From the NCBI GenBank assembly GCA_021234155.1, contig JAJEKV010000027.1, positions 8,232,873 to 8,296,872 of the forward strand: a stretch of DNA of 64,000 bases, given 5' to 3'. Below, piece after piece: positions 28,472 to 64,000 of this stretch. Each line of letters opens with the position of its first letter. Position 1 is the stretch's first letter. Source of the stretch: Isoetes taiwanensis. Taxonomy: Eukaryota > Streptophyta > Lycopodiopsida > Isoetales > Isoetaceae. The position numbers were made by a program, and so were the translations under genes. The notes under the pieces were generated by a model. That model was not told where the DNA came from. It did no database searches and saw nothing but the letters and a program-made list of their open reading frames with translations.

Positions 28472-28598
28472 CTCAACACCATAGCTTAAAACCATATCTA
28501 GACACACTGGATCCCATAAAATACAGCAGCATATAAATTCATAGTCTACGCCAAGGCATAATAACACAAACACAAGAGCATCATTCAAAGATGAGAGG

Positions 28599-28778
28599 AG
28601 CCTGAGGAACCGAACTCCAGTTTGAATCCAATGCTCATAACTCACCTGCCTGTGTATGCAATAAGTCCAGGCATCCATAAACATTAAGCCTATGTATAGG
28701 GACGATCAGACCATGCCACTGACTGCTACTGCAAGTTGCAACGGGCAGTGGCATGCATCTGATGATCCCTATACATAG
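28599..28778 (-). repeat. 3' module B of HUH copy 2: 32-bp-arm hairpin plus T-arm-like stem
   Basis: Arms 28690-28721 and 28746-28778 pair almost perfectly (outer CTATGTATAGGGA, inner CATGCCACTG) around a ~24-nt loop. Downstream on the minus strand, ATGAGCATTGG and GGAGTTCGGTTCCTC repeat the string found after module A, so the whole module was duplicated. Confidence 0.75.
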
Positions 28779-28834
28779 CGCTCGCCTTGACAAAGGAGAA
28801 GACCTGCAATGCAACAGAAAAAGGCCATCAGTAA

Positions 28835-28917
28835 GCCCGAGGAATTGAACCCCAGCGCAATGCCAATGCTCATCCGCATATAAGATAGATCCCACAAGAG
28901 TGGATCAGCCTTTATGC
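28835..28917 (-). repeat. 3' module A of HUH copy 2: hairpin plus T-arm-like stem
   Basis: On the minus strand, GCATAAAGGCTGATCC pairs imperfectly with GGGATCTATCTTATATGC. It is followed by ATGAGCATTGG and GCTGGGGTTCAATTCCTCGG, which resembles a tRNA T-arm/B-box. The homologous position in copy 1 has the same architecture with different stem bases. Confidence 0.7.
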
Positions 28918-29164
28918 CTAAGGGCCAACCTACCAAAGCCTGAAAGTGTTAGCAACCGTGGCAATAAATGCACAACAAAATGACGTTTATAAAACCATAG
29001 GCCAACTCGAGGAAGACAACAAGGCATGAGCATAAAAAGCACTGCATGTTCATGGACTCAGAAAATGTATACCTGACACAAATGCCAGCAAGAGAAGGCT
29101 GCAGAAAAACCTGATTACATAACATGATCAAACACAACAGCAAGAAAAAGAATCCACCTATTTC

Positions 29165-29535
29165 ATGGGCTCCCGAGATGCAGCCCGCCTGATGATGGCA
29201 TCAATCCGGTGGATCTCCGGGCCGTAAGAGTCATGACAAGGCTGGTATGTGATCTACATGCATGAAGCTCGCATATTGGAGCATCAAGTTGTTCCCAAGC
29301 AACACTAGAGATTGCCGAGTCAATTGCAAAGATATATAAACCTCGGCCAACCGCCTCCTCAAGATCCTAAGGAAGCCGTAATTTCAGGCCTCCATACCAA
29401 CCCGATAAGGCTAGATATGAACTCCTCCGCATTGAAAACCTTCAAAAACTCTACAGATAAACCCGAACTAGGCCAGATGCATCAATTCTAGAACTATTAA
29501 GAGAGGGATCCAAACTCGTAACCGGTGGCCCATCT
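29165..29535 (-). pseudogene. Remnant of the second small frame in HUH copy 2
   Basis: DNA-level match to the 128-residue frame at 50108-50494: GAGGAGTT, TCTAGCCTTATCGGGTTGG and TATGGAGGC align with GAGGAATT, ACTAGCATTGTGCAGGTTGG and TACGGAGGC. Reading frames are broken. The match shows that the second frame belongs to the element and is not a chance ORF. Confidence 0.55.
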
Positions 29536-30600
29536 CACCCCGCTGTATTCCCATTATCTTCCATTTCAATCCCCGCAAGAACGGTCACCACCACGTGACT
29601 TTTTGTCAAGAAAAATAAAATAAACACACAACCGGCATGTACAACAAACAAATCATACAAGGAATCCCAACAAACCATGGTGTGGTCCCCAAAATGGAGA
29701 TGTAATCCACACCATGATCGAATTTCTACTGGGCTAAAGGATGGATCACCAAGATCCTCAAAGTTACAGTCCATCTCATCTGGTGGCAAGGAGTCATCCT
29801 AGTACCTCTGACGCCTAGGACTATTCCGTTCCACCACCACATACCCTGCATGCAAACTAAAGAGGATGGTCCTCACATCGATGGCATGCAATGGGATTGG
29901 GGGGTTCAACAGAGTCTCCCATGCAAAGACGACTCGCGGCTCATTGACATAAGCATTATTGGATCTAATGATCCAACCACGCTTAAAGTGTACTTCCCAC
30001 TCATGAGCAAAAGAAATAGTAAATGTCAAGCTAGGAGTGAGTCACTGACCTCTGCAATAAAATACAAAGTGAGCTGACTTATTCAACAGGTTCCTGTTGT
30101 CCAATACACACAAACCTTTGGTGTCCCCAAATGGGCCCATCTCGTATACAAGTCCCGCCCTTCAAATCATGGATTCAGAGATGTTATGGAGATGACAAGA
30201 ATAGTGTACCTTACCTACATCCTTCATACAAAGCACTCCAAGCATGCCTTTAAAAGCAATGGTAACTGCTATCCTTCAAAGACTTTGCACACTAGAACAA
30301 CACCAGCTGGTTTGGAGGCCCAATTGGAATCTTTCTTTATAGCCTCATTGAAAGCCCTAGGTGTCTTGTATCGGGCTCTTAGCACAGATTGGACATGAAG
30401 ATGGTCTGCAGAAGACCCCCTCTCCAAGGCAACTGCACCAGCAATACATCTTCTATCACAAAAGGAAGAAAGAGCATCAAAGAAACTAAGGGGGACATCT
30501 TGTCCGCATAATCCCAAAGCAAACAGAGACATCAATTGCCTTCCGCTTTTAGTGCAAGGTTAGGCATGGCGGTGACTAGGTATGGCAAAGGAAATATCAC
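29535..30600 (-). pseudogene. Degenerate HUH/Rep-like protein, catalytic tyrosine lost
   Basis: Minus-strand pieces follow the intact frame at 48974-50104. The first, 30269-30535, contains GLCGQDVP, CIAGAVALERGSS and ADHLHVQSVL, so the HUH pair is kept. Around 30200-30240 the next piece reads GMLGVLCMKDVGKVHYSCH where the intact copy has GMVGYCMKDFGKVHYSCH: the codon of the tyrosine is replaced by two codons (Val-Leu). A stop follows SESMI. Later pieces (29799-30029 and 29535-29789) keep WIIRSN, DVRTILF, VERNSPRRQRY and NFEDL. An upstream frame (30532-30810) covers the N-terminal region but is shifted and has a stop soon after the conserved MS(L/M)RR start. Not functional as read. Confidence 0.75.
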
Positions 30601-31049
30601 CAGACCAACCCGACTACATGGGCATGAGGAGCAGAGCTTTGCCCTTTCTAGTCGCTTCTCCTCATCGACATGAGCACAAACACAACTCGTAAAACAAACC
30701 GAATCGAAGGCGCCACCGCTTGTCAGAGCGTCGTTGTTGTTTGCAGCTTGTTGTTTGTCAGCTGAAATGGATAGGGGCAACCTCATTTCAAAGTAGGAGG
30801 CTACCGACACCTGTAGCGACCAAAATTAGAAGCCCTTTGCTTCGTCGCCATGTATAGCATCCACACGCGCTGGCCCTATCTGCTCGTCCTTTGCCAAAAC
30901 AACAGAGAAGGAAAAAAAAAAAAAAAAACCTTCTTTCTAAAATCCAGATGCCACCGTCATCTTTTTATGTATTTGTATACCAATACCACCTTTAACCTTC
31001 AAAAATCTTATGTTATAAAACTACGATTCTTGATCCGGCAGAGATTATA

Positions 31050-36010: not shown

Positions 36011-37095
36011 ATGAGCTGTTACAGCTAATAACTAATTTCAATCTAACGGCTAAGATCTAAAGTAGTCGAGGAACTGCGGGTTAAGTATCCTTGCAGCTTG
36101 CTTGCTTGACAATAGGAGTTGTTGGTATAGTATTATAGTATCAACATAGCTTCAGATCCTCATTAATTACATTCTCACCATAGCCTGCCTTTCACATTTG
36201 TAGATTTTTGTGAGCATGCCTACAACCACACTAAACATACAGAGAAACAACTGCTAGGATGCTTGCAGAATGGGTATATGAAACTTAAACCATGGTCCCG
36301 TTTTTGAATCCTACACCACACATGAAACTAGGATCTTCCTGGTTCCATATGGCCTAATCATGGATAGGCAGCAAGATTCATGACTTTTCTGACGAACGAT
36401 CGTTAAACCAATATATACGAGGACAATCCTTTCCTATCCTGATGAGCACCTTAGCAGGATACTGGATGGGCACCACCAGTTTGGGATGAACTGAGATGGT
36501 CCATGCCTGACCTTTCAGTCTTTGTTGCAACTTATCTTGGATAAATATCAAATAAGCAGCAACTCTTGGACTTTTAATTCAATTGTTGACCATTTGGAAG
36601 CCATCTTCTGAAGGTTTGAACAATCATCTGTGTCTGTTGGTTTGTAACTGTGGAATATGTTGTAGTACCATGTCGACAGGATGAAAGTTACGAATTATTA
36701 GTGCATATTGTAATCTAGCTCTACAAATACAGTATAGATATTTGAGCATATATGCTGCAACATGTCAATTTTGAACAGGTAGTAGCCTTAAACCCACCAT
36801 TTGGCATTAAACAAACTGGCCAAACCAGTAGTGTGCAATAGTACACATCTACCTTCCAGGCATAGAAACTTGAAGTAACAACATGGTTTCAAATCCTATA
36901 TGTTCAATCAATTCAAGGATGCCTATTGAAATTTGAACTGTGATAAATTTACTAAACAAGGTTTGGAACATACTATAAGTCCAACTCATAGAGTTGGAAG
37001 TCGAGAAATGTTCGCGGCGGTATGTGCACCCTCTTCCTTTGGAGACATACAGATGAGCAAAATAGAGGATGTAGGGATACAACACCATGTTAGTA
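36010..37095. other. No recognisable gene
   Basis: AT-rich spacer. Nothing supported. Confidence 0.35.
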
Positions 37096-37099
37096 TAGA

Positions 37100-38910
37100 A
37101 TATGTAGCAAAATAACAGGGGTTCCAGGGGGATTTGATATGGATGTAAAAATAACAATTTGTGAAACCATAGACCATATATCCCTAAAACAATTGAACGG
37201 GTTGTTATAAAAAAAAAACATAGATTCAAGATAAAAAATAATCACATTAGCTCACTGGGTACATTGGTTAATGTAGTCTTATTAGGACATTGAGTTATTT
37301 TGGTAGAGGTTCAAGCCCTCGTATTTCATATTCTCAAATCTTAGGCAAAGCCGTATAGAGGTTCGAATCATAAATGACTATAATCAAAACGAGAGGTGTC
37401 CAGAGGCCCCAACATACGACCTGGACCGTAGGATCGACGAATCCGACGACTGTGGTACTCCAGGGTGCACCTCGTTTAGAATATGTAGCAAAATAACGGG
37501 GGTTCCGTGGGGATTTGATATGGATGTAAAATAACAATTTGTGAAACCATAGACCATATATCCCTAAAACAATTGAACGGGTTGTTATAAAAAAAAACAT
37601 AGATTCAAGATAAAAAATAATCACATTAGCTCACTGGGTACATTGGTTAATGTAGTCTTATTAGGACATTGAGTTATTTTGGTAGAGGTTCAAGCCCTCG
37701 TATTTCATATTCTCAAATCTTAGGCAAAGCCGTATAGAGGTTCGATATTCCCTCAAAACCTTAGGCAAAATCGTATTTCATATTTCAAAATCATAAAAAG
37801 CCTCAATCATAAATGACTATAATCAAAACGAGAGGTGTCCAGAGGCCCCAACATACGACCTGGACCGTAGGATCGACGAATCCGACGACTGTGGTACTCC
37901 AGGGTGCACCTCGTTTAGAATATGTAGCAAAATAACAGGGGTTCCAGGGGGATTTGATATGGATGTAAAAATAACAATTTGTGAAACCATAGACCATATA
38001 TCCCTAAAACAATTGAACGGGTTGTTATAAAAAAAAACATAGATTCAAGATAAAAAATAATCACATTAGCTCACTGGGTACATTGGTTAATGTAGTCTTA
38101 TTAGGACATTGAGTTATTTTGGTAGAGGTTCAAGCCCTCGTATTTCATATTCTCAAATCTTAGGCAAAGCCGTATAGAGGTTCGATATTCCCTCAAAACC
38201 TTAGGCAAAATCGTATTTCATATTTCAAAATCATAAGCGCCTCCAATCATAAATGACTATAATCAAAACGAGAGGTGTTCAGAGGCCCCAACATACGACC
38301 TGGACCGTAGGATCGACGAATCCGACGACTGTGGTACTCCAGGGTGCACCTCGTTTAGAATATGTAGCAAAATAACAGGGGTTCCAGGGGGATTTGATAT
38401 GGATGTAAAAATAACAATTTGTGAAACCATAGACCATATATCCCTAAAACAATTGAACGGGTTGTTATAAAAAAAAAACATAGATTCAAGATAAAAAATA
38501 ATCACATTAGCTCACTGGGTACATTGGTTAATGTAGTCTTATTAGGACATTGAGTTATTTTGGTAGAGGTTCAAGCCCTCGTATTTCATATTCTCAAATC
38601 TTAGGCAAAGCCGTATAGAGGTTCGATATTCCCTCAAAACCTTAGGCAAAATCGTATTTCATATTTCAAAATCATAAGCGCCTCCAATCATAAATGACTA
38701 TAATCAAAACGAGAGGTGTCCAGAGGCCCCAACATACGACCTGGACCGTAGGATCGACGAATCCGACGACTGTGGTACTCCAGGGTGCACCTTGTTTAGA
38801 ATATGTAGCAAAATAACAGGGGGTTCCAGGGGGATTTGATATGGATGTAAAAATAACAATTTGTGAAACCATAGACCATATATTCCTAAAACAATTGAAC
38901 GGGTTGTTAT
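37100..38910 (+). repeat. Head-to-tail array of a ~440-bp repeat (four units plus a partial)
   Basis: Units start at ATATGTAGCAAAATAAC at 37100, 37481, 37920, 38360 and 38801. Periods are 381, 439, 440 and 441 bp. The first unit lacks ~60 bp in its distal half. Within a unit, in order: GGGGTTCCAGGGGGATTTG, an A-run (TTATAAAAAAAA), an A-box-like TTAGCTCACTGGG, a B-box-like GGTTCAAGCCC about 55 bp later, a second GAGGTTCGA, and a GC-richer end with GGTGCACCTCGTTTAGA. Units are almost identical, so amplification was recent. Minus-strand frames through the array are repeats of each other, not genes. Confidence 0.92.
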
Positions 38911-39310
38911 AAAAATAGAATAGAATCGAATAGTTTTTTAACGTCCACGGAGACCAATAGGTCATGGGACGCATACAATGGGCTAGTACAATCATTACTA
39001 CTAGGATTAAAAAACCCCTGCCTCGAAAGGTTTTCAAGGGAAAAACCTTTGCAGTAATGATGATACTAGACAAGCGGAGATAATAACTACTGAGGGCTCA
39101 GTGATTGCTGACGTTTATCTAGAACCTCAAGTATGTATAATGCCAAGTCATGCACAGATGGTGCTCTGAGAAGTTGTGGAAGCGTGGAATGGAATGCTAA
39201 TGTCAAAAAATGATTCCGGACTATCTCAAAAGCAGGGCAACTCAGAAGAGTTGATAAAAAATAATCACATTGATCATATTTTGTTTGAGCGACCAACTTC
39301 CGCATACAGC
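38909..39310 (-). mobile_element. 5'-truncated copy of the LINE family
   Basis: On the minus strand, the frame 39087-39305 reads LLSCPAFEIVRNHF, parallel to LQSCPAYDLIRTCY at the C-terminus of the full LINE at 42.5 kb. The same 3' untranslated region follows (AGGGAAAAAC, GGTTTTCAAGG, CGTCCACGGAGACC reading on the plus strand), ending in an ATTCT-type tail (38909-38930). It adjoins the 440-bp repeat array on its tail side. A piece of that repeat (GATAAAAAATAATCACATT) occurs at its other end. Confidence 0.75.
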
Positions 39311-42514: not shown

Positions 42515-43675
42515 TCAAGTGTGTGCCCGAGGACATAGCTGATCTCGCATGTCCATAACCTCCTGAAGGTATGATCCCAGCACCCGTACGGATGTTGTGC
42601 GCAATGTCACATGTAACGACTGGCCAGGCCTGACCAACTCAGCATAGCATGTCCGAATTAGATCATATGCTGGGCAACTTTGAAGGGTATGAGATTCATC
42701 CTCAATGACTCCCATTTGGCAGCATTGACAGAGCCTGTCCTGGCGTGGCTCACCAATCCATCTGCCCGTCTCAATTCGAAGATGATGTGCCCCTGTGCGA
42801 ATGGAGGCAATGAGTCTGCGCCTTTTCATGGGCAAGTGGGTACGCAAGTAGCATTGCGGGCCTCGTTCCAATGTGGGATTTATGTGGCGCTGGTAGTGTG
42901 CTGTCTTGACATGTTCATGGGCATTGGCATCCCAAAGCTTGCTGAGGAAGCAAGCGTCAAGATATTGCCCCAAGCTATGGCGATCTGCCTCTGTTTGCAC
43001 ATGTATGCACCTGTGCTCCTGCACATTCCATCTAGCCATCCATTGAGCTCTCTTTTCCCTCCAGCAGGCCTTGAGGCGCTGGGGCCCCATTGCCATGATA
43101 TAAGCTAGTTTACGGAGACGAGCATCGTCCATATTGACCACCTTCTGAAAATAGACAATGTGGTGATCAAGGGCCGCCCTCTGAAGAGGCAAGAATCCTG
43201 TCTCCCCGCAAAGAGAATTTGATATGGGACTGTTGACTTCACCCCTAGTGCTTTCATTTCTAAGAAGGCTTTTCGACCTGCTCCAAGTCATTCCAAGTAG
43301 CAAGTGATACCACTTGGACCCCATACTTCCACCCCGTATAAAAGGGCGGGCTCTACTAAGACCTTGAATATGTGTGTGGTGATGGGCCCAATCATACAAC
43401 TCCGCTCTATGACTATTGTTTTGCATTGCATATAGTGCCTTCCAGCCTGCCGTCACTCGTAGCCGTATGGATGTGTCCCAGTGCATAGTAGAAGGAAACT
43501 CCACTCCCAAATACTTGTATGTGGATGCAACTTCCACATTCTGACCTTGGTAACTAAAGGAGGGGACCCTCGGCTGACGTGAAGATGATATGAAAACCAC
43601 CTTAGTCTTGGCCAGGTTGACGCGCATATCAGTCGCTTGGCAGAATGTGTCCAGGGCATCGAGATGTCGTTGCAT
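42515..43675 (-). pseudogene. LINE ORF2, region after the reverse transcriptase
   Basis: 386 residues. The start (NLAKTKVVFISS and YKYLGVEF) is the segment that follows the YADD box in LINE reverse transcriptases. The end has a Cys-x2-Cys-x9-His-x4-Cys knuckle (CQCCQMG, DESHTLQSC) followed by PAYDLIR, typical of plant LINEs. It is separated from the YADD frame by a frameshift between 43675 and 43693. Confidence 0.85.
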
Positions 43676-43692
43676 GTCTGCTGGTGTGTAAG

Positions 43693-44760
43693 TTAGAGGT
43701 CCACATCATCGGCATATATTAACTGTCTGATGATCTGATAGAGAAGGTGAGCTCCATCGCCCCCATTATCAGCAAGCCATCTCTCCAATTGATCAATGTA
43801 AAGCCCAAACAATGTTGGGGAGAGAGGGCATCCCTGACGAACCCCGATACTACTATCAAATGGTTGGCTTGTCTGCTGCAACTGACCCGAGCATCTTTCA
43901 TATAGCCTGTACACTGCATTCTGCAAATCTACAGGAACCCCCAGCTGTTGCAGTCTTGCCCATAGTTTTTCTCGAGGCACAGTGTCAAACGCCCAAAAAA
44001 TCCACAAAGCAACAATATAGATCCCGACGGCGGTTCCTGCCGGCCTTCAATCGAAGTTCGCGAGCGTGAAGATGTGGTCAATGGTTGAGTGCGGTCTGAA
44101 TCTCTCACGGGTGAGAGCCCGCGACCTCTCTTTACCTCGGGCCGCCAGATCAACTGCTGCTCAAAAATCCCAGCAAGTAGTTTTGCAAACACCGAACTAA
44201 CCATGATTGTTCGGTAATTGGCCGGGCAGGCAGGGGTCACCGCCTTATAGATGGGAACAACTCGCTATTGGTCCACCGCCCGCGTGGCGGGAAGCCTTCT
44301 TGTAATGCCTTGTTGAACAAGGCGGTCAGCACTGGTATTATGGACGGCCCTGCCTACTTAAGCAATTCTGCCTGCATACCATCCAAGTCTGGGGCTTTCC
44401 CATTGGCAAGACGCTGTAAGCCTTGTTCCACGTCCGAATCTGTGATTTCCAGCACTGGGCCTTCTTGCAAGGGTAATGCTGCATGTGCACCCCGAGGGTC
44501 GTATAGTGTTGCAAGTATTGCCTCCACCGCCGGGAGTGATATTCCCGTGAGAACATCGCGGCTTTTCTAAGAACCCTTCGCCAAAAGGTCCTGGGGTGAC
44601 GTTCGAGGAGGTAAAACATTTCCCTTTGATGCGCTGCAATGTACCTGGCTTTCTTAGCTTTAAGGAAGATCGCGATCGCCTGGACCGCATGTGGGCGTAA
44701 AGCGTGGTGACTTGGCGGAGCCGATTTGTGTTCCTTTGTGTTCCTTGCACTCGCATCAAA
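43693..44760 (-). pseudogene. LINE ORF2 reverse transcriptase domain (broken)
   Basis: Pieces in several frames. GKPQTWMVCRQNCL is a shifted GKAPGLDGIQAELL-like start; then ACPANYRTIMVSSVFAKLLAG, AFDTVPREKLWARL, GVRQGCPLSPTLFGLYID, and QLIYADDVDL with the catalytic YADD. The order matches LINE reverse transcriptases. The linker before it (FWRRVLRKA) is also typical. Confidence 0.88.
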
Positions 44761-44911
44761 CCATTGATTACGTGGGAAGGTTGTGTTCCCGGAGGTCAGC
44801 ATCGCGGGCGGCTTATCCCAATGCACCTCTACGCCCAAGTCCTAAGCGCACATCGGTCCGCCCTACTGCTCATTTGCTCTAGTGTAGGATATTGCAAAAT
44901 TTTCTCGCCAG

Positions 44912-45883
44912 TCATCTATAAGCATCCGGGCATAAGCCCCCATGTTCATAATCCAATCGCAGCTGAGGCATGTGAGGAGTTGTTGCACCGGGGGTTCGCA
45001 CAACCTGCCAAGCCAACTTCAAGTAAAGTGGTAAGTGGTCTGAGTCGATCTCTTCATCCCTATTAGTTGTTCCCACCTGAAAGTGCTTGACGACATGCAT
45101 ATCCTGCTCAGGCACCAACACATAGTCCACCACACTAGATCCGCCCCCCTGGTTTTCCTGCCTACAAGTGCTCTTGCGGGTGGAAGGCCACTGTGCCAGT
45201 CCATTGCATATTACCAGGTCAAAGATACTGCAGAGCAAAAGCAACTGTCGACCATAGCGCGTGACCTGATTGTCATCTGATGTCCGTGACCAAGCTCCTT
45301 CTGCAGGACGCAACTGCAATATATCATCAGTCAAGGGATCAAATCTCATGGGTTGTTCTACCCCGGTGCGCGCATTGAAGTCTTCAAGGAGTATGACACT
45401 GCCCAACTGCTTATGTTGCTGTATGTCATCATATAGATCGACATAGGGGTCCAGCCTATCCACATCCGAGTGGGTGTGATAGAAGTTGCTTTACGCATGT
45501 GGAAAGTAGCAGGTGCCACAAAGAGGGGTCTGCTATCGCAGCTTTGCACACGCACCCATAGGTACCGGTTGTGCTTTGTCCGTCTTGAACAAGGAGATTG
45601 ACCGTGCCAAGGTTGTTCGGTAGTAGCGGGCAACCCCCCATGCCCCCTTTCACGTGCAATCATTGAAGATTGAGTAGTGCCGGTATCCCGGCAAGCCGGG
45701 TATCCTGTGGTCCGCATGCTCCCATGTTTCCATGAGGAAGATGAGATCCATGTCTGCGGCAATCGAAGTTGAGACTATCTCCCTTCCGGCCATGGGAAGC
45801 CCCCACAATTCCGGTGAAACCATGGAGGCACAATTCCTATTTGTTGGCGGGGCGCCAGGTGGGGATTCAAAGGGCAATGGCAA
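44912..45883 (-). pseudogene. LINE ORF2 endonuclease domain (broken)
   Basis: Exonuclease-endonuclease-phosphatase family. The N-terminal piece reads MDLIFLMETWEH (the E of the LxETW motif). A middle piece has ILLEDFNARTG (DFNAR motif); the C-terminal piece has SSVVDYVLV and SDHLPLYLKL (SDH motif). Frame breaks lie near 45460 and 45650. Confidence 0.85.
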
Positions 45884-48600: not shown

Positions 48601-48973
48601 CCTTATGTCCTCAAAATTGTGTGCAAAAGATGTCTTCATAATCTTGCAACAATCAAATTTGGTATTTTTGTAACATATGATTTATTAAGGTTAATAGGTG
48701 GTATTCGTATACCAAACCGTATGAATACCAGAGAAAGACAGGGGTTGCGAACGCATACAGATCCATTTTTTTTTCCCTAGGTCGGGGGGAGGCGCGTCCT
48801 TCCCGGGCGCTCCAGCACTTGGCGCTGCTTGCTAAATCGGGAGGATGGGCGGGGAAAGGGATCGGCATGTTGGCTTATCTTCCTGCGAGGGCTTACAGTT
48901 TCGATTTCGTCTTCCTGCAGGTGAGTTAGCGCCTGGTCTGTGTGTTTTACCTCTTTCGATTCTGTTGCTTGAG

Positions 48974-50104
48974 ATGTCTTTAAGAAGGGAGGCCAGGAGG
49001 GCAAGGGCTGGGCATGCAAATCTTCCATCTGGTTCGATGGCCTCTATGGCCTGCTCATCTGCACAGACTGCTGATTCTATCCCTTTGCCAGATACTAGCC
49101 CGAGCTGGGATTCAATTGATGTTTCTGTTACTTTAGGCCTTTCTGGACAAGATGTTCCCAAATCTTTCTATGATGCCCTTGTCAGATTTTGTGACTCCAA
49201 ATGTCTAGCAGGGGCAGTAGCCTTGGAAAGGGGCTCCTCGGCTGATCACTTACATGTTCAGGGTGTTTTGAGAGGTCGATTCAGAAGTCCTAAGGCCTTG
49301 AATGATGCTATCAAAAAAGACTTCAACTGGTCTCCCAAGCCTGCTGGCGTGGTGTTGGTCTGCAAAGCTTTGAAAAATAATAGGCTGCATTGTTTTGAGG
49401 GAATGGTAGGATATTGTATGAAAGATTTTGGAAAAGTTCACTATAGTTGTCATATGCACAATATCTCTGAATCTATGATTGAAAAAGGTAAGGATCTTTA
49501 TTTAAGGTGGGGTGCAGGTGATACTAAAGGGTTGTGTGTCTTGGATAATAGGAATCTCTTAAATAAGGCATGCCATTACGTGATGTATCATGGGGGTCGT
49601 AGACTATCCCCAAGCCCCGACCTTTACTTTGTGCGGATGTTGAGGTCTGGAAAATACACATTAAGTAGTTCTTGGATTATTCCTCATAATTACGCCCATG
49701 TGAATGAACACAGTGAGGCGGGCAAAGATGGAGAGTGTTGCTTAATCCCCGGCGGGTTTGCCTTATCCGACGTAAGAACTATTATCTTTGGTTATCCTTC
49801 AGGGTTTGTTCCTGTTGAGAGGAATGGGCCTGGTAGAAGGCGCTATTGGGATGATGCCATTCCAGCAGACGAACAGGACTCAAACTTTGAGGATCTGCAT
49901 GAGAGAACCTTTAGCTCTGAGGCGGATATCCCTGATGTTGGTGCAGACTATATCCCCATTATACACCTGTGGGATCACACCATGGCAAAGGGGTTGATTT
50001 CTTTCATGTGGTTCCTTCTTGTACAGTGTATAGTCTTTTGTATTTATCTGCTGTTGTATTTCTCTGGTTTATGGTTGGTACAGATTTGTGCAGGGTCTTC
50101 TTGA
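48974..50104 (+). CDS. HUH endonuclease (Rep-like, single tyrosine) of a Replitron-like transposon
   Basis: Such enzymes nick one DNA strand, forming a tyrosyl-DNA link, to start rolling-circle-type replication or transposition. The frame is open from 48845, but I chose ATG 48974 (377 residues) because copy 2 aligns from a matching MS(L/M)RR start and a donor-like CAG/GTGAGT lies at 48918-48926. A basic stretch (RREARRAR, residues 4-11) could be a nuclear signal. The HUH motif is DHLHVQG (His92, His94, Gln96); motif III is GYCMKDFG (Tyr147, Lys150). A C-terminal region conserved in copy 2 has SSSWIIPHNYAHVNE, FALSDVRTIIFG and VERNGPGRRRYWDD. The last ~37 residues look like a membrane helix and are poorly conserved; they may be intron read-through. 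It looks intact except for that end. Confidence 0.72.
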   Translation: MSLRREARRARAGHANLPSGSMASMACSSAQTADSIPLPDTSPSWDSIDVSVTLGLSGQDVPKSFYDALVRFCDSKCLAGAVALERGSSADHLHVQGVLRGRFRSPKALNDAIKKDFNWSPKPAGVVLVCKALKNNRLHCFEGMVGYCMKDFGKVHYSCHMHNISESMIEKGKDLYLRWGAGDTKGLCVLDNRNLLNKACHYVMYHGGRRLSPSPDLYFVRMLRSGKYTLSSSWIIPHNYAHVNEHSEAGKDGECCLIPGGFALSDVRTIIFGYPSGFVPVERNGPGRRRYWDDAIPADEQDSNFEDLHERTFSSEADIPDVGADYIPIIHLWDHTMAKGLISFMWFLLVQCIVFCIYLLLYFSGLWLVQICAGSS

Positions 50105-50107
50105 GAA

Positions 50108-50494
50108 ATGGATGGAAATGGCGACACCATGGATGAGACCCCACCTGTGGTTGTTAGTATTGGTCCTGATATCATCAGTTCTACCATTGATGATTCTCAT
50201 CCAAACCCGCATGCTTATCCTCCTGAAAGTGAGGAAGTCTTTACTGCTGAGGAATTTGTGACTAGCATTGTGCAGGTTGGTACGGAGGCGCATAGGATTG
50301 CAGCCTCATTGAGGATCCTGAGAAGGCAGATAGGAAGCTTCTATGTTGCTATAAATTCTGCCTTATCTGCTGTGCAATGGGACCGTCTTGGTGTCTTGGG
50401 AATCGAGTCGCATGTGTTGCGCTCACACATGAGCTTGGCAAGGGCTCTCCCGACACGGAGATACGCCCGGCAATCAGCTCATCGGGCATGCTAG
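50108..50494 (+). CDS. Second small frame of the HUH element (ORF2 or 3' exon)
   Basis: 128 residues, starting 3 bp after the Rep frame stops. The N-terminus is acidic; the middle (FVTSIVQVGTEAHRIAASLR) looks helical. No known domain. Copy 2 retains matching DNA (29165-29535), and its start region MEDNGNTAG parallels MDGNGDTMDET. The segment between DHTM and this frame is hydrophobic in both copies. In copy 2 it starts GTTTGTTGG right after the ATG codon, like a donor, while copy 1 has GCAAAGG there; TTTGTGCAG lies before this frame. So this could be a separate protein or a spliced C-terminal exon. Unresolved. Confidence 0.45.
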   Translation: MDGNGDTMDETPPVVVSIGPDIISSTIDDSHPNPHAYPPESEEVFTAEEFVTSIVQVGTEAHRIAASLRILRRQIGSFYVAINSALSAVQWDRLGVLGIESHVLRSHMSLARALPTRRYARQSAHRAC

Positions 50495-50722
50495 CTACGG
50501 GGCCGACCGGGGAATTGAGAAGCTTTGTGTTGAACTTGCATCGATTATCCGGTTATGTGTGATGAACTTATATGTTGTTGTGATCTCGAACTATTTACGC
50601 CATGTGGCTTCGTATCTGGTATTTCAATGTAAATATTTGACATTTGTTTGCTTGATAATTGGACACCTGTTTCCTGTTTATATTTCTGACAGTGTTTATT
50701 CCAGTGGGGCATTGGCCCCCTT

Positions 50723-50802
50723 GCATAAGGGAGCTCCATTAGTTGGAGCTCTCTTATGCTCGGCTGAGCTGTGGTTGCTTGCTGGGGTTCGATTCCCCAG
50801 GC
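50723..50802 (+). promoter_or_regulatory. 3' hairpin plus tRNA T-arm-like stem-loop of HUH copy 1
   Basis: GCATAAGGGAGCTCC (50723) and GGAGCTCTCTTATGC (50745) form a 15-bp stem with one G-U pair and a 7-nt loop ATTAGTT; the inner part also resembles a tRNA D-arm/A-box. Twenty-one bases on, CTGGGG-TTCGATT-CCCCAG is a perfect T-arm with a canonical B-box. Copy 2 has the same arrangement with different stem sequence. It could be an origin/terminator structure, a pol III promoter, or a captured tRNA piece. Confidence 0.6.
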
Positions 50803-50834
50803 TCAGGCCTGATATTTGATCTGCAGGTATAACA

Positions 50835-50959
50835 GTATTCTTTGGAGAATACGCCATGGTTTTATTTATAGTTGCATGTATTTTTGTTCAAGTCAAACAA
50901 GCCAGGTATGACTTGTAAAGGACTTGAAATGGAGGGCAGGGATGCTCTTAGAGAGCATC
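50835..50959 (+). terminator. Two further perfect hairpins at the 3' side of HUH copy 1
   Basis: GTATTCT-TTGG-AGAATAC (50835-50852) and GATGCTCT-TAG-AGAGCATC (50941-50959). Helitron-type elements carry a short terminator hairpin near the 3' end; an equivalent role here is only an inference. Confidence 0.4.
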
Positions 50960-51271
50960 TTGACTTTTGGACCATTGTCTTTTTTTTTTAAATGGCTGTC
51001 ATCTGACGGCCCAAAATCCATAACACAAGTTATATCCATAATACCATATACATGATGCATGACCCTGTCTTCAATATGCATGGTTATCTAAATTCATTAA
51101 TTAGCATTGGCATCATCTTTTAACACCTTCTTGATCCTAATCATTCTTGGCTTAAGTTTAAGAAATAGGTTCCATAGGAATTACAACTTCCCATGTTGGC
51201 ATTTTAGTTGTATACAAAGCCAGTTCCTTTTTCTCTTCGAGATTAACAGCCTCCAATTGGTCATTATTCAT

Positions 51272-51566
51272 TTCTACATATTCTAAACGAGGTGCACCTG
51301 GAGTACCACAGTCATCGGATTCGTCGATCCTATGGCCCAGATCGTATGTTGGGGCTCTGGACACCTCTCGTTTTGATTATAGTCATTTATGATTGGAGGC
51401 GCTTATGATTTTGAAATATGAAATACGATTTTGCCTAAGGTTTTGAGGGAATATCGAACCTCTGGCTTTGTCTAAGATTTGAGAATATGAAATACGAGGG
51501 CTTGAACCTCTACCAAAATAACTCAATGTCCTAATAAGACTACATTAACCAATGTACCCAGTGAAC
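51272..51566 (-). mobile_element. Partial copy of the 440-bp repeat
   Basis: Covers the distal part only: from TTCTACATATTCTAAACGAGG on the plus strand, through GTCGATCCTA and TCATTTATGATTGGAGGCGC, to the A-box complement (AATGTACCCAGTGA). It stops exactly there and lacks the A-run and the 5' third. Confidence 0.8.
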
Positions 51567-53710: not shown

Positions 53711-55333
53711 GTGTGACGTTCCAGCACAGTATACGGTCCCAGGACGTATATTGTACTGCCTCGTCATGCGTACACGCCACCCCGACTGACGTGTACGCCG
53801 ACGTGTAGCCAGGCTAGTAGCCCCTAGGGGGCAACTTGCTAGGTATGTGCATTTCTTATTAATGTGCACATGCACATTTATTAAGGTGCACACATTTCCA
53901 TGTGGGCACAATTAGGTGCACACATTTCCATGTGGGCACATTTAGGTGCACACATTTCCATGTGGGCCCATTTAGGTGCACACATTTCCATGTGGGCACA
54001 TTTGGGTGCACACATTTCCATGTGGGCACATTTGGCCACCTAGCTATTAAAGGCAAGTGGGCCCATTCCCAATTATCCCACATGCCTAAAGGGGATAATT
54101 GGAAACCCTAGCCTAACCCCTTGCCTATTTAAGTAGGAGAACCCTAACTTGCCCATTTTCGTTCCTAGGGTTTTAGAGCCTCGCTTTGGCTGCTCCAGAG
54201 TCAAAAACGCCTCCCGCACTGCCCCAGAGAATGGCACCATTAGTTTCCCTTGATTCGAAAGCAGCTCAAATAGGATGGTCGGCCTCGTGTCGAGGAGCAA
54301 CCCAAGGATCAGGTATTTAGTTAATTTAATAGCCTAAACCATCTTCTAGACATAGAATCAATAGGTTTAGCCTATTAAATTGCCCATAGCAGCTCTCTAG
54401 ATCTCTAGATACCAGACTCTAACTAAAGAACCTAACTCTATGATATAGATTAGATATAGTTCTTTAGTTCTTCCCAAATGTATGTGGATGATGTATCTCT
54501 ATGAACTCCTTGTATTGGGAAGGGGGGTAGAGACCTAAAGCTTGGTAGTAGATGCTCCTAGATTAGCCTCTCTAGCACACTATAGATTCGGCCTGTGTAC
54601 AAGAACCACACCAGGTTGTGGGTGAAGGGGCCAAACTGGCTAAGAAGGAGGTTCATGTTCTGACTCTTGAACGATCCCTCTGGTGTGTAAGGCCTACCGG
54701 GGATCATTGTGACTAGGTCTGATGGCTCACCACTGAGTGCGGGTGAGGCATGGACTCGACACCCGTGAAGTGGTGTACACTTTCCAAAGGTTCACCGGAA
54801 TACGGCAAAGGGCCCTCTAGTCACCTTGAGTCAGCATGTAGATCTCTGGAGGGAGTGACCCCTTCCTGCCCCCATCGAATCGGGAGATGGAACCCAGGAA
54901 TAGCCCCCTTTGGCTATGCATCCCGGCTGGCTACGGGCCAGTCCCCACACTTTTCAGCCCTTACTCGCAAAGTGTGGACAGGGAGGGGCGGATGGAGGGA
55001 CAACCCTATGCCATGTTCTTATGCCCGCCCAAATCCATTGCCATGAATTACCTCGCGCAATGAACTCGAGACCCAAGCCGCCGGGCCATCCCCTTTGAGT
55101 CTGAGCCTTGGGTAGGATTCCCTTATGTGATGTGCTGATCTTTGTCTATGCAGATATGTGGTGAACCATCCTTCGTGATGGTCTTATGATGTTGATGTAT
55201 GTACTACTGACATGTATGTTTACGCTTCAGCCTAGGTAAGCCCCGAGGGAGACGGGGTAAAATGACCCTTCACTCTTCCCAATCGGGACTCGCTACGGTG
55301 CAAGCGGTGATTGTGGAGGGCCCCTCAGACGAT
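53711..55333 (+). repeat. LTR-like dispersed repeat, copy A
   Basis: Aligns over its whole length with 62401-64000. Shared landmarks are ATACGGTCCC, CCTAGGGGGCAACTTGCTA, CTATTTAAG (a TATA-like box at about 54125) with AACCCTAACTTGCCCATTTT just after, CTCCTTGTATTGGGAAGGGG, GACTCGACACCCGTGAAG, and GGGAGACGGGGTAAAATGACC. It starts with TG. A TATA-like box plus transcript-like sequence fits a long terminal repeat. No gag or pol was found next to it, so it may be a solo LTR; the 3' end is not defined. Confidence 0.6.
53885..54034. repeat. 30-bp minisatellite, five units, inside LTR-like copy A
   Basis: GGTGCACACATTTCCATGTG begins units at 53885, 53915, 53945, 53975 and 54005. Because 30 is a multiple of three, it makes long repetitive frames on both strands. 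Copy B has a different, lower-copy version. Confidence 0.95.
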
Positions 55334-59813: not shown

Positions 59814-60147
59814 TTGGCTATATATTCTAAATGAGGTGCACGCTGGAATACCACAGTCGACGGATTCGTCGATCCTACGACCCAGATCGTATGTTGGGGC
59901 CTGAAAGTACCTCTCGTTTCGCTTATAGTCATTTATGATTGGAGGCGCCTATGATTTTGAAATATCAAATACGATTTAAGCCTAAGGTTTGAGGAATATC
60001 GAACCTCTATCACGGCTTTGCCTAAGAATTTAAAATATGAAATACGCGGGCTCGAACCTCTATCAAAATAACTCCATGACCTAATAGGACTACTTTAACC
60101 AATATACCCAATGAACTAATGTGATTATTTTTTACGTTGAAGATATG

Positions 60148-60178
<31 letters not shown>

Positions 60179-60288
60179 TCCATTCAATTGTTTTAGGGAT
60201 ATATGGTCTATGGTTTCAGGAATTGTTATTTTCTACATCCATATCAAATCATCCTGGAACCCCCTGTTATTTTGCTACATATTCTAAC
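59814..60288 (-). mobile_element. Full-length single copy of the 440-bp repeat
   Basis: Reverse orientation. It begins TTGGCTATATATTCTAA and ends TTTGCTACATATTCTAA, direct repeats matching at 15 of 17 positions. The body follows the array unit, with a longer T-run (60149-60173, the A-run on its own strand). It lies inside a dispersed repeat whose relative at 47.3-47.57 kb lacks it, so it is a true insertion. Confidence 0.82.
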
Positions 60289-62400: not shown

Positions 62401-64000
62401 TGTGGACGTTCGGGACGATATACGGTCCCGGGGATCGATCTTTATCTTGCCTCGTCCTACACGCACACGCCACTCCGATCGACGCGTGTGCTGACGGCGT
62501 GTAGCCAAGTGGGTAGCCCTAGGGGGCAACTTGCTAAGAATGTGCATTAGTATTAATGTGCACATTTACCAATGTACACATTAATGTGGGCACACATTTC
62601 CATGTGGACACTTTATGCCAAGTGGGCCATACCCAAGTGTGCAATTAATGTGCACATTTACCAATGTACACATTAATGTGGGCACACATTTCCATGTGGG
62701 CACATTTTGCCACCTAGCCATAAAAGGCAAGTGGGCCCATTCCCAATTATCCCACATGCCAAAAGGGGATAATTGGAAACCCTAGCCAACCCCTTGTCTA
62801 TTTAAGAAGGGAAACCCTAACTTGCCCATTTTTCGTTTCTAGGGTTTTTAGAGCTCTGTTTGGCTGCCTCAAGAGCCAAAACCGCCTCCCGCACTGCCTC
62901 GAGAGAATTGCACCATTAGTTTCCCTTGATTCGAAGCGTTTTGTGGGATGGTCGAACTTCAGGAGGAGCCACTCAAGGATCAGGTATTTGGCCAATTAAA
63001 TAGTCTAAACCCTATTTCAGTCATATAATCAGTAGGTTTAGCCTATTAAATTGCCCATAGCAGCCTTCTAGATCTCTAGATACCAGCCTCTAACTAAAGA
63101 ACCTAACTCTATGATATAGATTAGATATAGTTCTTTAGTTCTTCTGTGATATATATGGATGATGTATCTCTATGAACTCCTTGTATTGGGAAGGGGGGTA
63201 GAGACCTCAAGCTTGGTAGTAGATGCTCCTAGATTAGCCTCTCTAGCACACTATAGATTCGCCTCAGGCACAAGAACCACACCTGGTTGTGGGTGAAGGG
63301 GCCAGACCGGCTAAGAAGGAGGCTCATGTTCCGACTCTTGAACGATCCCTCTGGTGTGTAAGGCCTACCAGGGATCAGAGTGACTTGGTCTAATGGCTTA
63401 CCACTGAGTGTGGGTAGGGCATGGACTCGACACCCGTGAAGTGGTGTACACTTTCCAGTGGGTTCAGTCGAATACGGGTAGTGGCCCTCTAGTTACCTTG
63501 GGTCGGCATGCAGATCTCTAGAGGGAGCGATCCCTTTCTGCCCCATCGGAACTGGGAGGATGAGACCCAGGAATAGCCCCGTTGGCTATGCATCCGGCGG
63601 GCTACAGTCAGGTCCCGACACTTTTCAGCCTACTCTGCAAAGTGTGCACAGGAGGGGCGGATGGAGTGGACAACCCTATGTCATGTTCATATGCCAGCCA
63701 AATCCATTGCCATGAATTCTGTCCGCAATGAACTCTGGAGACCCAAGCCGTCAGTCATCCCCTTGAGTCCGAGCCTTGGGTAGGACTCCCCATATGTATT
63801 GTGCTCACCTTGTTTATGCAGATGTGATGGACCACCCTTCGAGGTGGATATGTGCTTATGTTATATACTGACATGTATGTTTACGCTTCTGCAGCTAGGT
63901 AGGCCCTGAGGGAGACGGGGTAAAATGACCCCTTCACTCTTCCCACTGGAACCCGTCACGGTTGCAGTGTCATGTGGAGGGCCCTGTATCGGCATGGAGC
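62401..64000 (+). repeat. LTR-like dispersed repeat, copy B (runs off the window)
   Basis: Same family and orientation as copy A, with TATA-like CTATTTAAG at about 62798 followed by AACCCTAACTTGCCCATTTT. In place of five 30-bp units it has two longer units containing GGGCACACATTTCCATGTGG (about 62578 and 62680) with AATGTGCACATTTACCAATG between. The interval between copies A and B contains no retroelement genes, so they are not the two ends of one intact element. Confidence 0.65.

Follow-up and report, generated by a model that had tools for sequence, protein, structure and literature searches.

The window analyzed here is a 64,000-nucleotide stretch of the Isoetes taiwanensis genome (assembly GCA_021234155.1, contig JAJEKV010000027.1, positions 8,232,873 to 8,296,872 of the forward strand), and all coordinates below refer to it. 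On the plus strand, the frame 48845-50104 stays open for 419 amino acids, or 376 amino acids when counted from an ATG at 48974. The encoded protein contains an HUH pair and one catalytic tyrosine, and its coding features are as follows.

48974..49966, plus strand: HUH endonuclease gene, section with a selection signal; the frame is open to a TGA at 50102-50104
49124..49501, plus strand: Replitron_HUH domain (amino acids 51-176) with H92, H94, Q96, Y147 and K150, from the PF21859 match and a residue table
49637..49783, plus strand: equivalent of the Replitron C-terminal domain (amino acids 222-270), from a profile comparison with three Adiantum proteins

The HUH protein and its fern relatives

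The 376-amino acid protein was searched against Pfam at E<=10, with search filters that remove most matches with E above about 0.1. PF21859 (Replitron_HUH) was the single family listed, with an E value of 3.9e-19 and a score of 69.7 bits (cut-off 28.5) over positions 1-127 of the 128-position profile. No helicase profile was obtained at this threshold for either this frame (48974-50104) or the second open frame downstream (50108-50494), and no Helitron profile, viral Rep nuclease profile or superfamily 3 helicase profile was listed. The sequence-only reading of this DNA had proposed a single-tyrosine HUH element lacking a helicase, and the profile match, the motif residues and the Pfam result for helicases agree with that proposal. 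Its placement of H92, H94, Q96, Y147 and K150, numbered from the ATG at 48974, was correct. Replitrons, which it had named as the closest group, proved nearer than it had allowed, and in the comparison that it had suggested with Replitron, CRESS Rep and Helitron models only the Replitron model was matched. A search of the PDB by sequence with the HUH protein gave no match apart from one to Nebulette at E 1.3.

The frame is not a chance occurrence, because the PF21859 match is accompanied by a codon-position bias relative to a second copy in the window (p 6e-8, detailed below). The start codon at 48974 is weakly favored by the sequence, since the 5' UTR upstream of it (48720-48973) shows no significant codon-position bias (mismatches at codon positions 1/2/3 of 27/32/23, p 0.51), but amino acids 1-45 show none either (p 0.30).

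A single-sequence search of 5.8 billion proteins yielded one relative (of 2412 candidates), and a search of the same proteins with a two-row alignment yielded seven (of 5739 candidates). All relatives found are hypothetical proteins (P0001-P0007) of two ferns, Adiantum capillus-veneris and A. nelumboides, and the proteins share 23-34% identity with the window protein (alignment A3). PF21859 is matched by all eight aligned proteins, comprising the window protein and the seven from Adiantum, whereas PF21860 (Replitron_C) is matched by three of the eight. The Adiantum proteins carry the GMxGYCxK motif of the window protein where they cover it, with Y147 and K150 retained in all seven rows reaching those positions. 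For motif II, H94 and Q96 are kept in all four rows that truly cover the motif and H92 in two of the four, a count that leaves out P0004 and P0005 (unrelated letters) and P0001 and P0002 (which begin after the motif). Two A. nelumboides proteins, P0003 and P0006, differ from the window protein at the opening position of the HUH pair, which is Asn instead of His, but retain the later His and the Gln.

A comparison by hhalign of amino acids 103-270 with three Adiantum proteins gave a probability of 99.4% and reached into the C-terminal region, where the aligned stretch of P0001 is called as Pfam Replitron_C (amino acids 123-175). The C-terminal block can be assigned to the Replitron family because it aligns with this stretch, and the earlier suggestion that it marks a plant lineage is therefore not upheld. 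PF21860 itself has no Pfam match in the window protein. A further block, SS[SC]WI[IT]P, is common to P0001, P0002, P0004 and the window protein.

The order and spacing of the motifs, HLHxQ followed by YCMK, resemble motifs II and III of CRESS virus Rep proteins, and the locus could on this basis be a CRESS DNA virus fragment that became integrated and encodes a geminivirus-like Rep. However, Pfam listed no viral Rep profile at E<=10 against the 3.9e-19 obtained for Replitron_HUH, and neither frame contains a helicase. Among viral_contigs, 14 pattern matches to the window protein included no confirmed relative and P0001 had no pattern match, while the one PHROG match of the window protein had an E value of 0.14. 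A viral origin of this kind is highly improbable.

The second copy and the candidate ends

A diverged relative of the same DNA is located in the other orientation within the window.

28516..31024, minus strand: degenerate second copy with a changed catalytic Tyr, gaps, stops, an inverted repeat at 28690-28778 and a second 3' module

The two copies align by blastn in their coding parts (70% identity, E 9e-50, with a further piece at 67%, E 2e-6) and in both end regions (a 54-bp 5' block at 85%, E 4e-10, and a 3' block at 75%, E 3e-4). These alignments bear out the earlier view of the locus as a repeated element with a broken copy at 28.5-31 kb. The shared non-coding flanks that had been described are also real, but the conservation detected by blastn is confined to 48662-48715 and 50742-50803.

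Mismatches between the copies at codon positions 1/2/3 number 27/20/67 in the HUH part (p 6e-8), 12/6/29 in the section after it (p 1e-4) and 27/13/32 in the C-terminal part (p 0.012), and the lineages of both copies were therefore subject to selection for protein over a long period. The tail at amino acids 300-331 shows no significant bias between the copies (p 0.50), and comparison with the second copy reveals no coding signal beyond approximately 49966 (12/11/13 mismatches in 49967-50107, p 0.90). The dN/dS ratio in the HUH part is about 0.08, a rough figure because dS (2.4) is near saturation; the second frame gives 0.40 and the 3' UTR control 0.47. The changed Tyr codon, gaps, stops and inverted repeat of the second copy indicate that it decayed after this long period of selection. 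The inverted repeat at 28690-28778 is 77% self-complementary and probably represents the insertion of a small element.

A former Replitron gene that was adopted by the host and kept as a host nuclease would likewise show selection on its reading frame, and would have stayed intact while the window's other copy broke down. Nevertheless, conservation between the copies extends to end blocks that lie beyond the gene, and the edges carry a direct repeat, as in a mobile element, and the selection is equally explained by copies that were mobile until recently. Adoption by the host is thus very unlikely. The locus is instead interpreted as a mobile element because the end blocks are conserved with little UTR similarity detectable by blastn between them. 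The features used to map its candidate ends are listed here.

48662..50887, plus strand: candidate full Replitron element, 2226 bp, from the start of 5' conservation and a 10-bp direct repeat
48662..48671, plus strand: left direct terminal repeat GTATTTTTGT, candidate nick site; the first 10 bp, recurring at the right end
50878..50887, plus strand: right direct terminal repeat GTATTTTTGT, an exact 10-bp repeat
48662..48715, plus strand: conserved 5' terminal block, 85% identical to 31024-30972 on the minus strand
48699..48730, plus strand: 5' subterminal 11-bp stem with GTATTC/GAATAC at 48701 and 48723
50835..50852, plus strand: 3' subterminal inverted pair GTATTC-TTTGGA-GAATAC, from the 6-mer pair count

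The candidate ends at 48662 and 50887 are derived from two copies within one window. Conservation between the copies at the 5' side begins exactly at 48662, as determined by both blastn and a strict alignment. The 10-bp repeat GTATTTTTGT taken alone is modest evidence because direct repeats of at least 10 bp arise between such end regions in 9 of 300 shuffles, but support for the ends is raised because the repeat begins where 5' conservation begins. In the second copy, the counterpart of the left end is GTAGTTTTAT, starting at 31024, and that of the right end is GTATTTTAT at 28524-28516. The alignment of this right tail is not significant by itself, with 93 of 500 shuffles reaching it. A scan of the second copy for exact repeats, the range of which ended before 28516, found no matching end repeat, and the inexact GTAGTTTTAT/GTATTTTAT pair falls outside that range.

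According to the available part of the published Replitron account (PMC10741241), these elements range in length from 900 bp to 4 kb, lack inverted end repeats and have direct terminal repeats of 5-11 bp. The candidate length of 2226 bp lies within this range, and the 10-bp direct repeat, with the shuffle frequency given above, lies within the stated repeat lengths. The same end letters can alternatively be split into a 5-bp repeat GTATT and a 4-bp duplication TTTG, and another listed pair of ends, 48653-50897, has the repeat TCAAA and the duplication CAA. With a criterion of 2-8 bp for Replitron target-site duplications, no clear duplication was found at the candidate ends in the two copies of this window.

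GTATTC or its complement GAATAC occurs four times in the 2226 bp (48701, 48723, 50835 and 50847), giving an inverted pair at each end. Any 6-mer appears twice at both ends in 16 of 2000 shuffles of two 100-bp end regions. These pairs are candidate binding sites. Folding of the 5' region is no more stable than that of its shuffles, with z-scores of -0.02 and -0.93 for the two copies.

The 3' structures and the second open frame

Downstream of the HUH gene, three further features are found before the right-hand repeat.

50108..50494, plus strand: second open frame, 128 amino acids
50723..50759, plus strand: 16-bp hairpin with one G-T pair and a 5-nt loop, from the fold of 50695-50830
50764..50806, plus strand: double stem resembling an acceptor stem and T-arm, loop TTCGATT, formed by a 6-bp hairpin and a 6-bp stem stacked outside it

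Folding of 50695-50830 gives a z-score of -5.36, and none of 200 shuffles folds as well. A hairpin near the 3' end and HUH chemistry are shared with Helitrons, and a Helitron that had lost its helicase would present both. The window element differs from Helitrons in having one tyrosine in its motif, no Helitron or helicase profile at E<=10 in Pfam and candidate direct terminal repeats, which leaves descent from a Helitron barely conceivable.

The stretch 50764-50806 adjoins the 16-bp hairpin and is shaped like a tRNA acceptor stem joined to a T-arm. Its loop fits TTCRATT, a full Pol III B-box by consensus. When folded alone, the stretch has a z-score of -1.78, with 11 of 200 shuffles folding as well. 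ARAGORN finds no tRNA here, and no Rfam family is matched at its cut-off. Among five sub-threshold Rfam matches, the top score is that of the tRNA-like mascRNA over 50764-50806 (17.3 bits versus a cut-off of 42.5, E 0.62) and the lowest E value is that of psaA (0.47). The motif GGGGTTCRATTCCYC, allowing up to two mismatches, is present at three places in the window versus 0.22 expected by chance; because it was built from two copies, two of these are exact matches by construction and one is a further match.

T-arm-like letters are present in the second copy at 28875-28831 and 28640-28596 on the minus strand. Similarity between the first copy's 3' module and the second of the two modules in the degenerate copy exceeds that in all 500 shuffles, and neither 3' module of the second copy folds better than shuffles. 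It is doubtful that the 3' end carries a working tRNA-like module, composed of an acceptor stem and T-arm and present twice in the second copy, that may serve as a recognition or replication signal. If this were true, the end of this HUH transposon would be a tRNA mimic. Such a module goes unmentioned in the available part of the Replitron description (PMC10741241).

The second open frame has a weak codon-position signal (p 0.096) that is equalled by the 3' UTR control (p 0.105), and 50108-50494 is consequently rejected as a proven gene. It was also rejected as a counterpart of the acidic, leucine-rich tail of Adiantum P0001, to which it has no similarity. An intron scan paired GT donors at 49880-50089 with AG acceptors at 49960-50299, 60-300 bp apart, using a simple home-made score and the best 40 pairs. 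Among these, the candidate intron 49969-50157 has compatible frames and would splice the second frame onto the coding part; its acceptor is good and its donor is weak (score 2, CCT|GTGGGAT).

Replitron assignment, proposed movement and neighboring sequence

The element is very likely a Replitron, that is, a helicase-free eukaryotic transposon with a one-tyrosine HUH nuclease and a C-terminal domain that moves by a proposed nick-and-rejoin route. The sequence data show the family of the protein, its motifs, past selection for its coding capacity, both copies and their conserved end blocks. Counted against the assignment are the unmatched PF21860 and the Asn found in place of H92 in two of the four rows covering motif II. 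Like Replitrons, the window element has an HUH domain that spans almost the full profile, no helicase detected and a seedless plant host, and it resembles those in the available part of PMC10741241 in its size of about 2.2 kb and in having direct rather than inverted repeats at its candidate ends. It differs from Replitrons in its diverged C-terminal part and a possible second frame. The family and its occurrence in seedless plants have already been reported, as stated in the part of that source at hand (PMC10741241). What the window adds is a well-preserved Replitron copy with a first, candidate map of its ends.

Binding sites, nick sites, an intermediate and an integration step can be proposed from these features. 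The process would begin with binding of the HUH protein to the GTATTC/GAATAC sites at both ends, with a metal ion held by the H92/H94/Q96 cluster. At the terminal GTATTTTTGT repeat, Y147 would then nick one of the strands and remain linked to the 5' phosphate. This chemistry is proposed because enzymes of the HUH superfamily link their tyrosine to the 5' phosphate of single-stranded DNA, as described in the available part of PMC13231165. For the steps after the first nick, we infer that the strand would be displaced by a host helicase and polymerase, that nicking again at the right-hand repeat would release a free single-stranded intermediate, probably circular, and that the reverse reaction would join this intermediate to a new site. 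The original Replitron description, reportedly published by Craig in PNAS in 2023, was outside the reach of the literature search, in which an experimental account of Replitron movement was not found. The long intact frame, with candidate nick and binding sites at both ends, is a direct substrate for experimental tests of movement.

The second copy adjoins a host gene with introns for an epoxide hydrolase (approximately 33162-31767, minus strand). Among the best 120 of 2251 protein matches to this gene, the top scores are from Citrus (419 bits) and Persea (405 bits), with Adiantum at 360 bits, and the highest identity, to a further sequence, is 54%. In a midpoint-rooted tree of 29 rows (28 of the best 120 and the window protein), it belongs to a group of nine rows, supported at 100/97, that also holds a moss, Selaginella, two Adiantum, three lgn rows and one eukprot row, with the order within the group left open. 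The named conifers and flowering plants fall outside this group, and the end branch of the window protein measures 0.73. This placement is in keeping with a seedless land plant as host.

Several other repeats are present in the window. A tandem array of approximately 440-bp units occupies 37093-38927, with related single copies at 51264-51566 and 59814-60287. A degenerate LINE-like stretch on the minus strand at 42515-45490 has reverse transcriptase and endonuclease matches under the Pfam cut-offs. Finally, a 1.6-kb direct repeat is located at 53715-55323 and 62405-63984, the two units of which are 83% identical.
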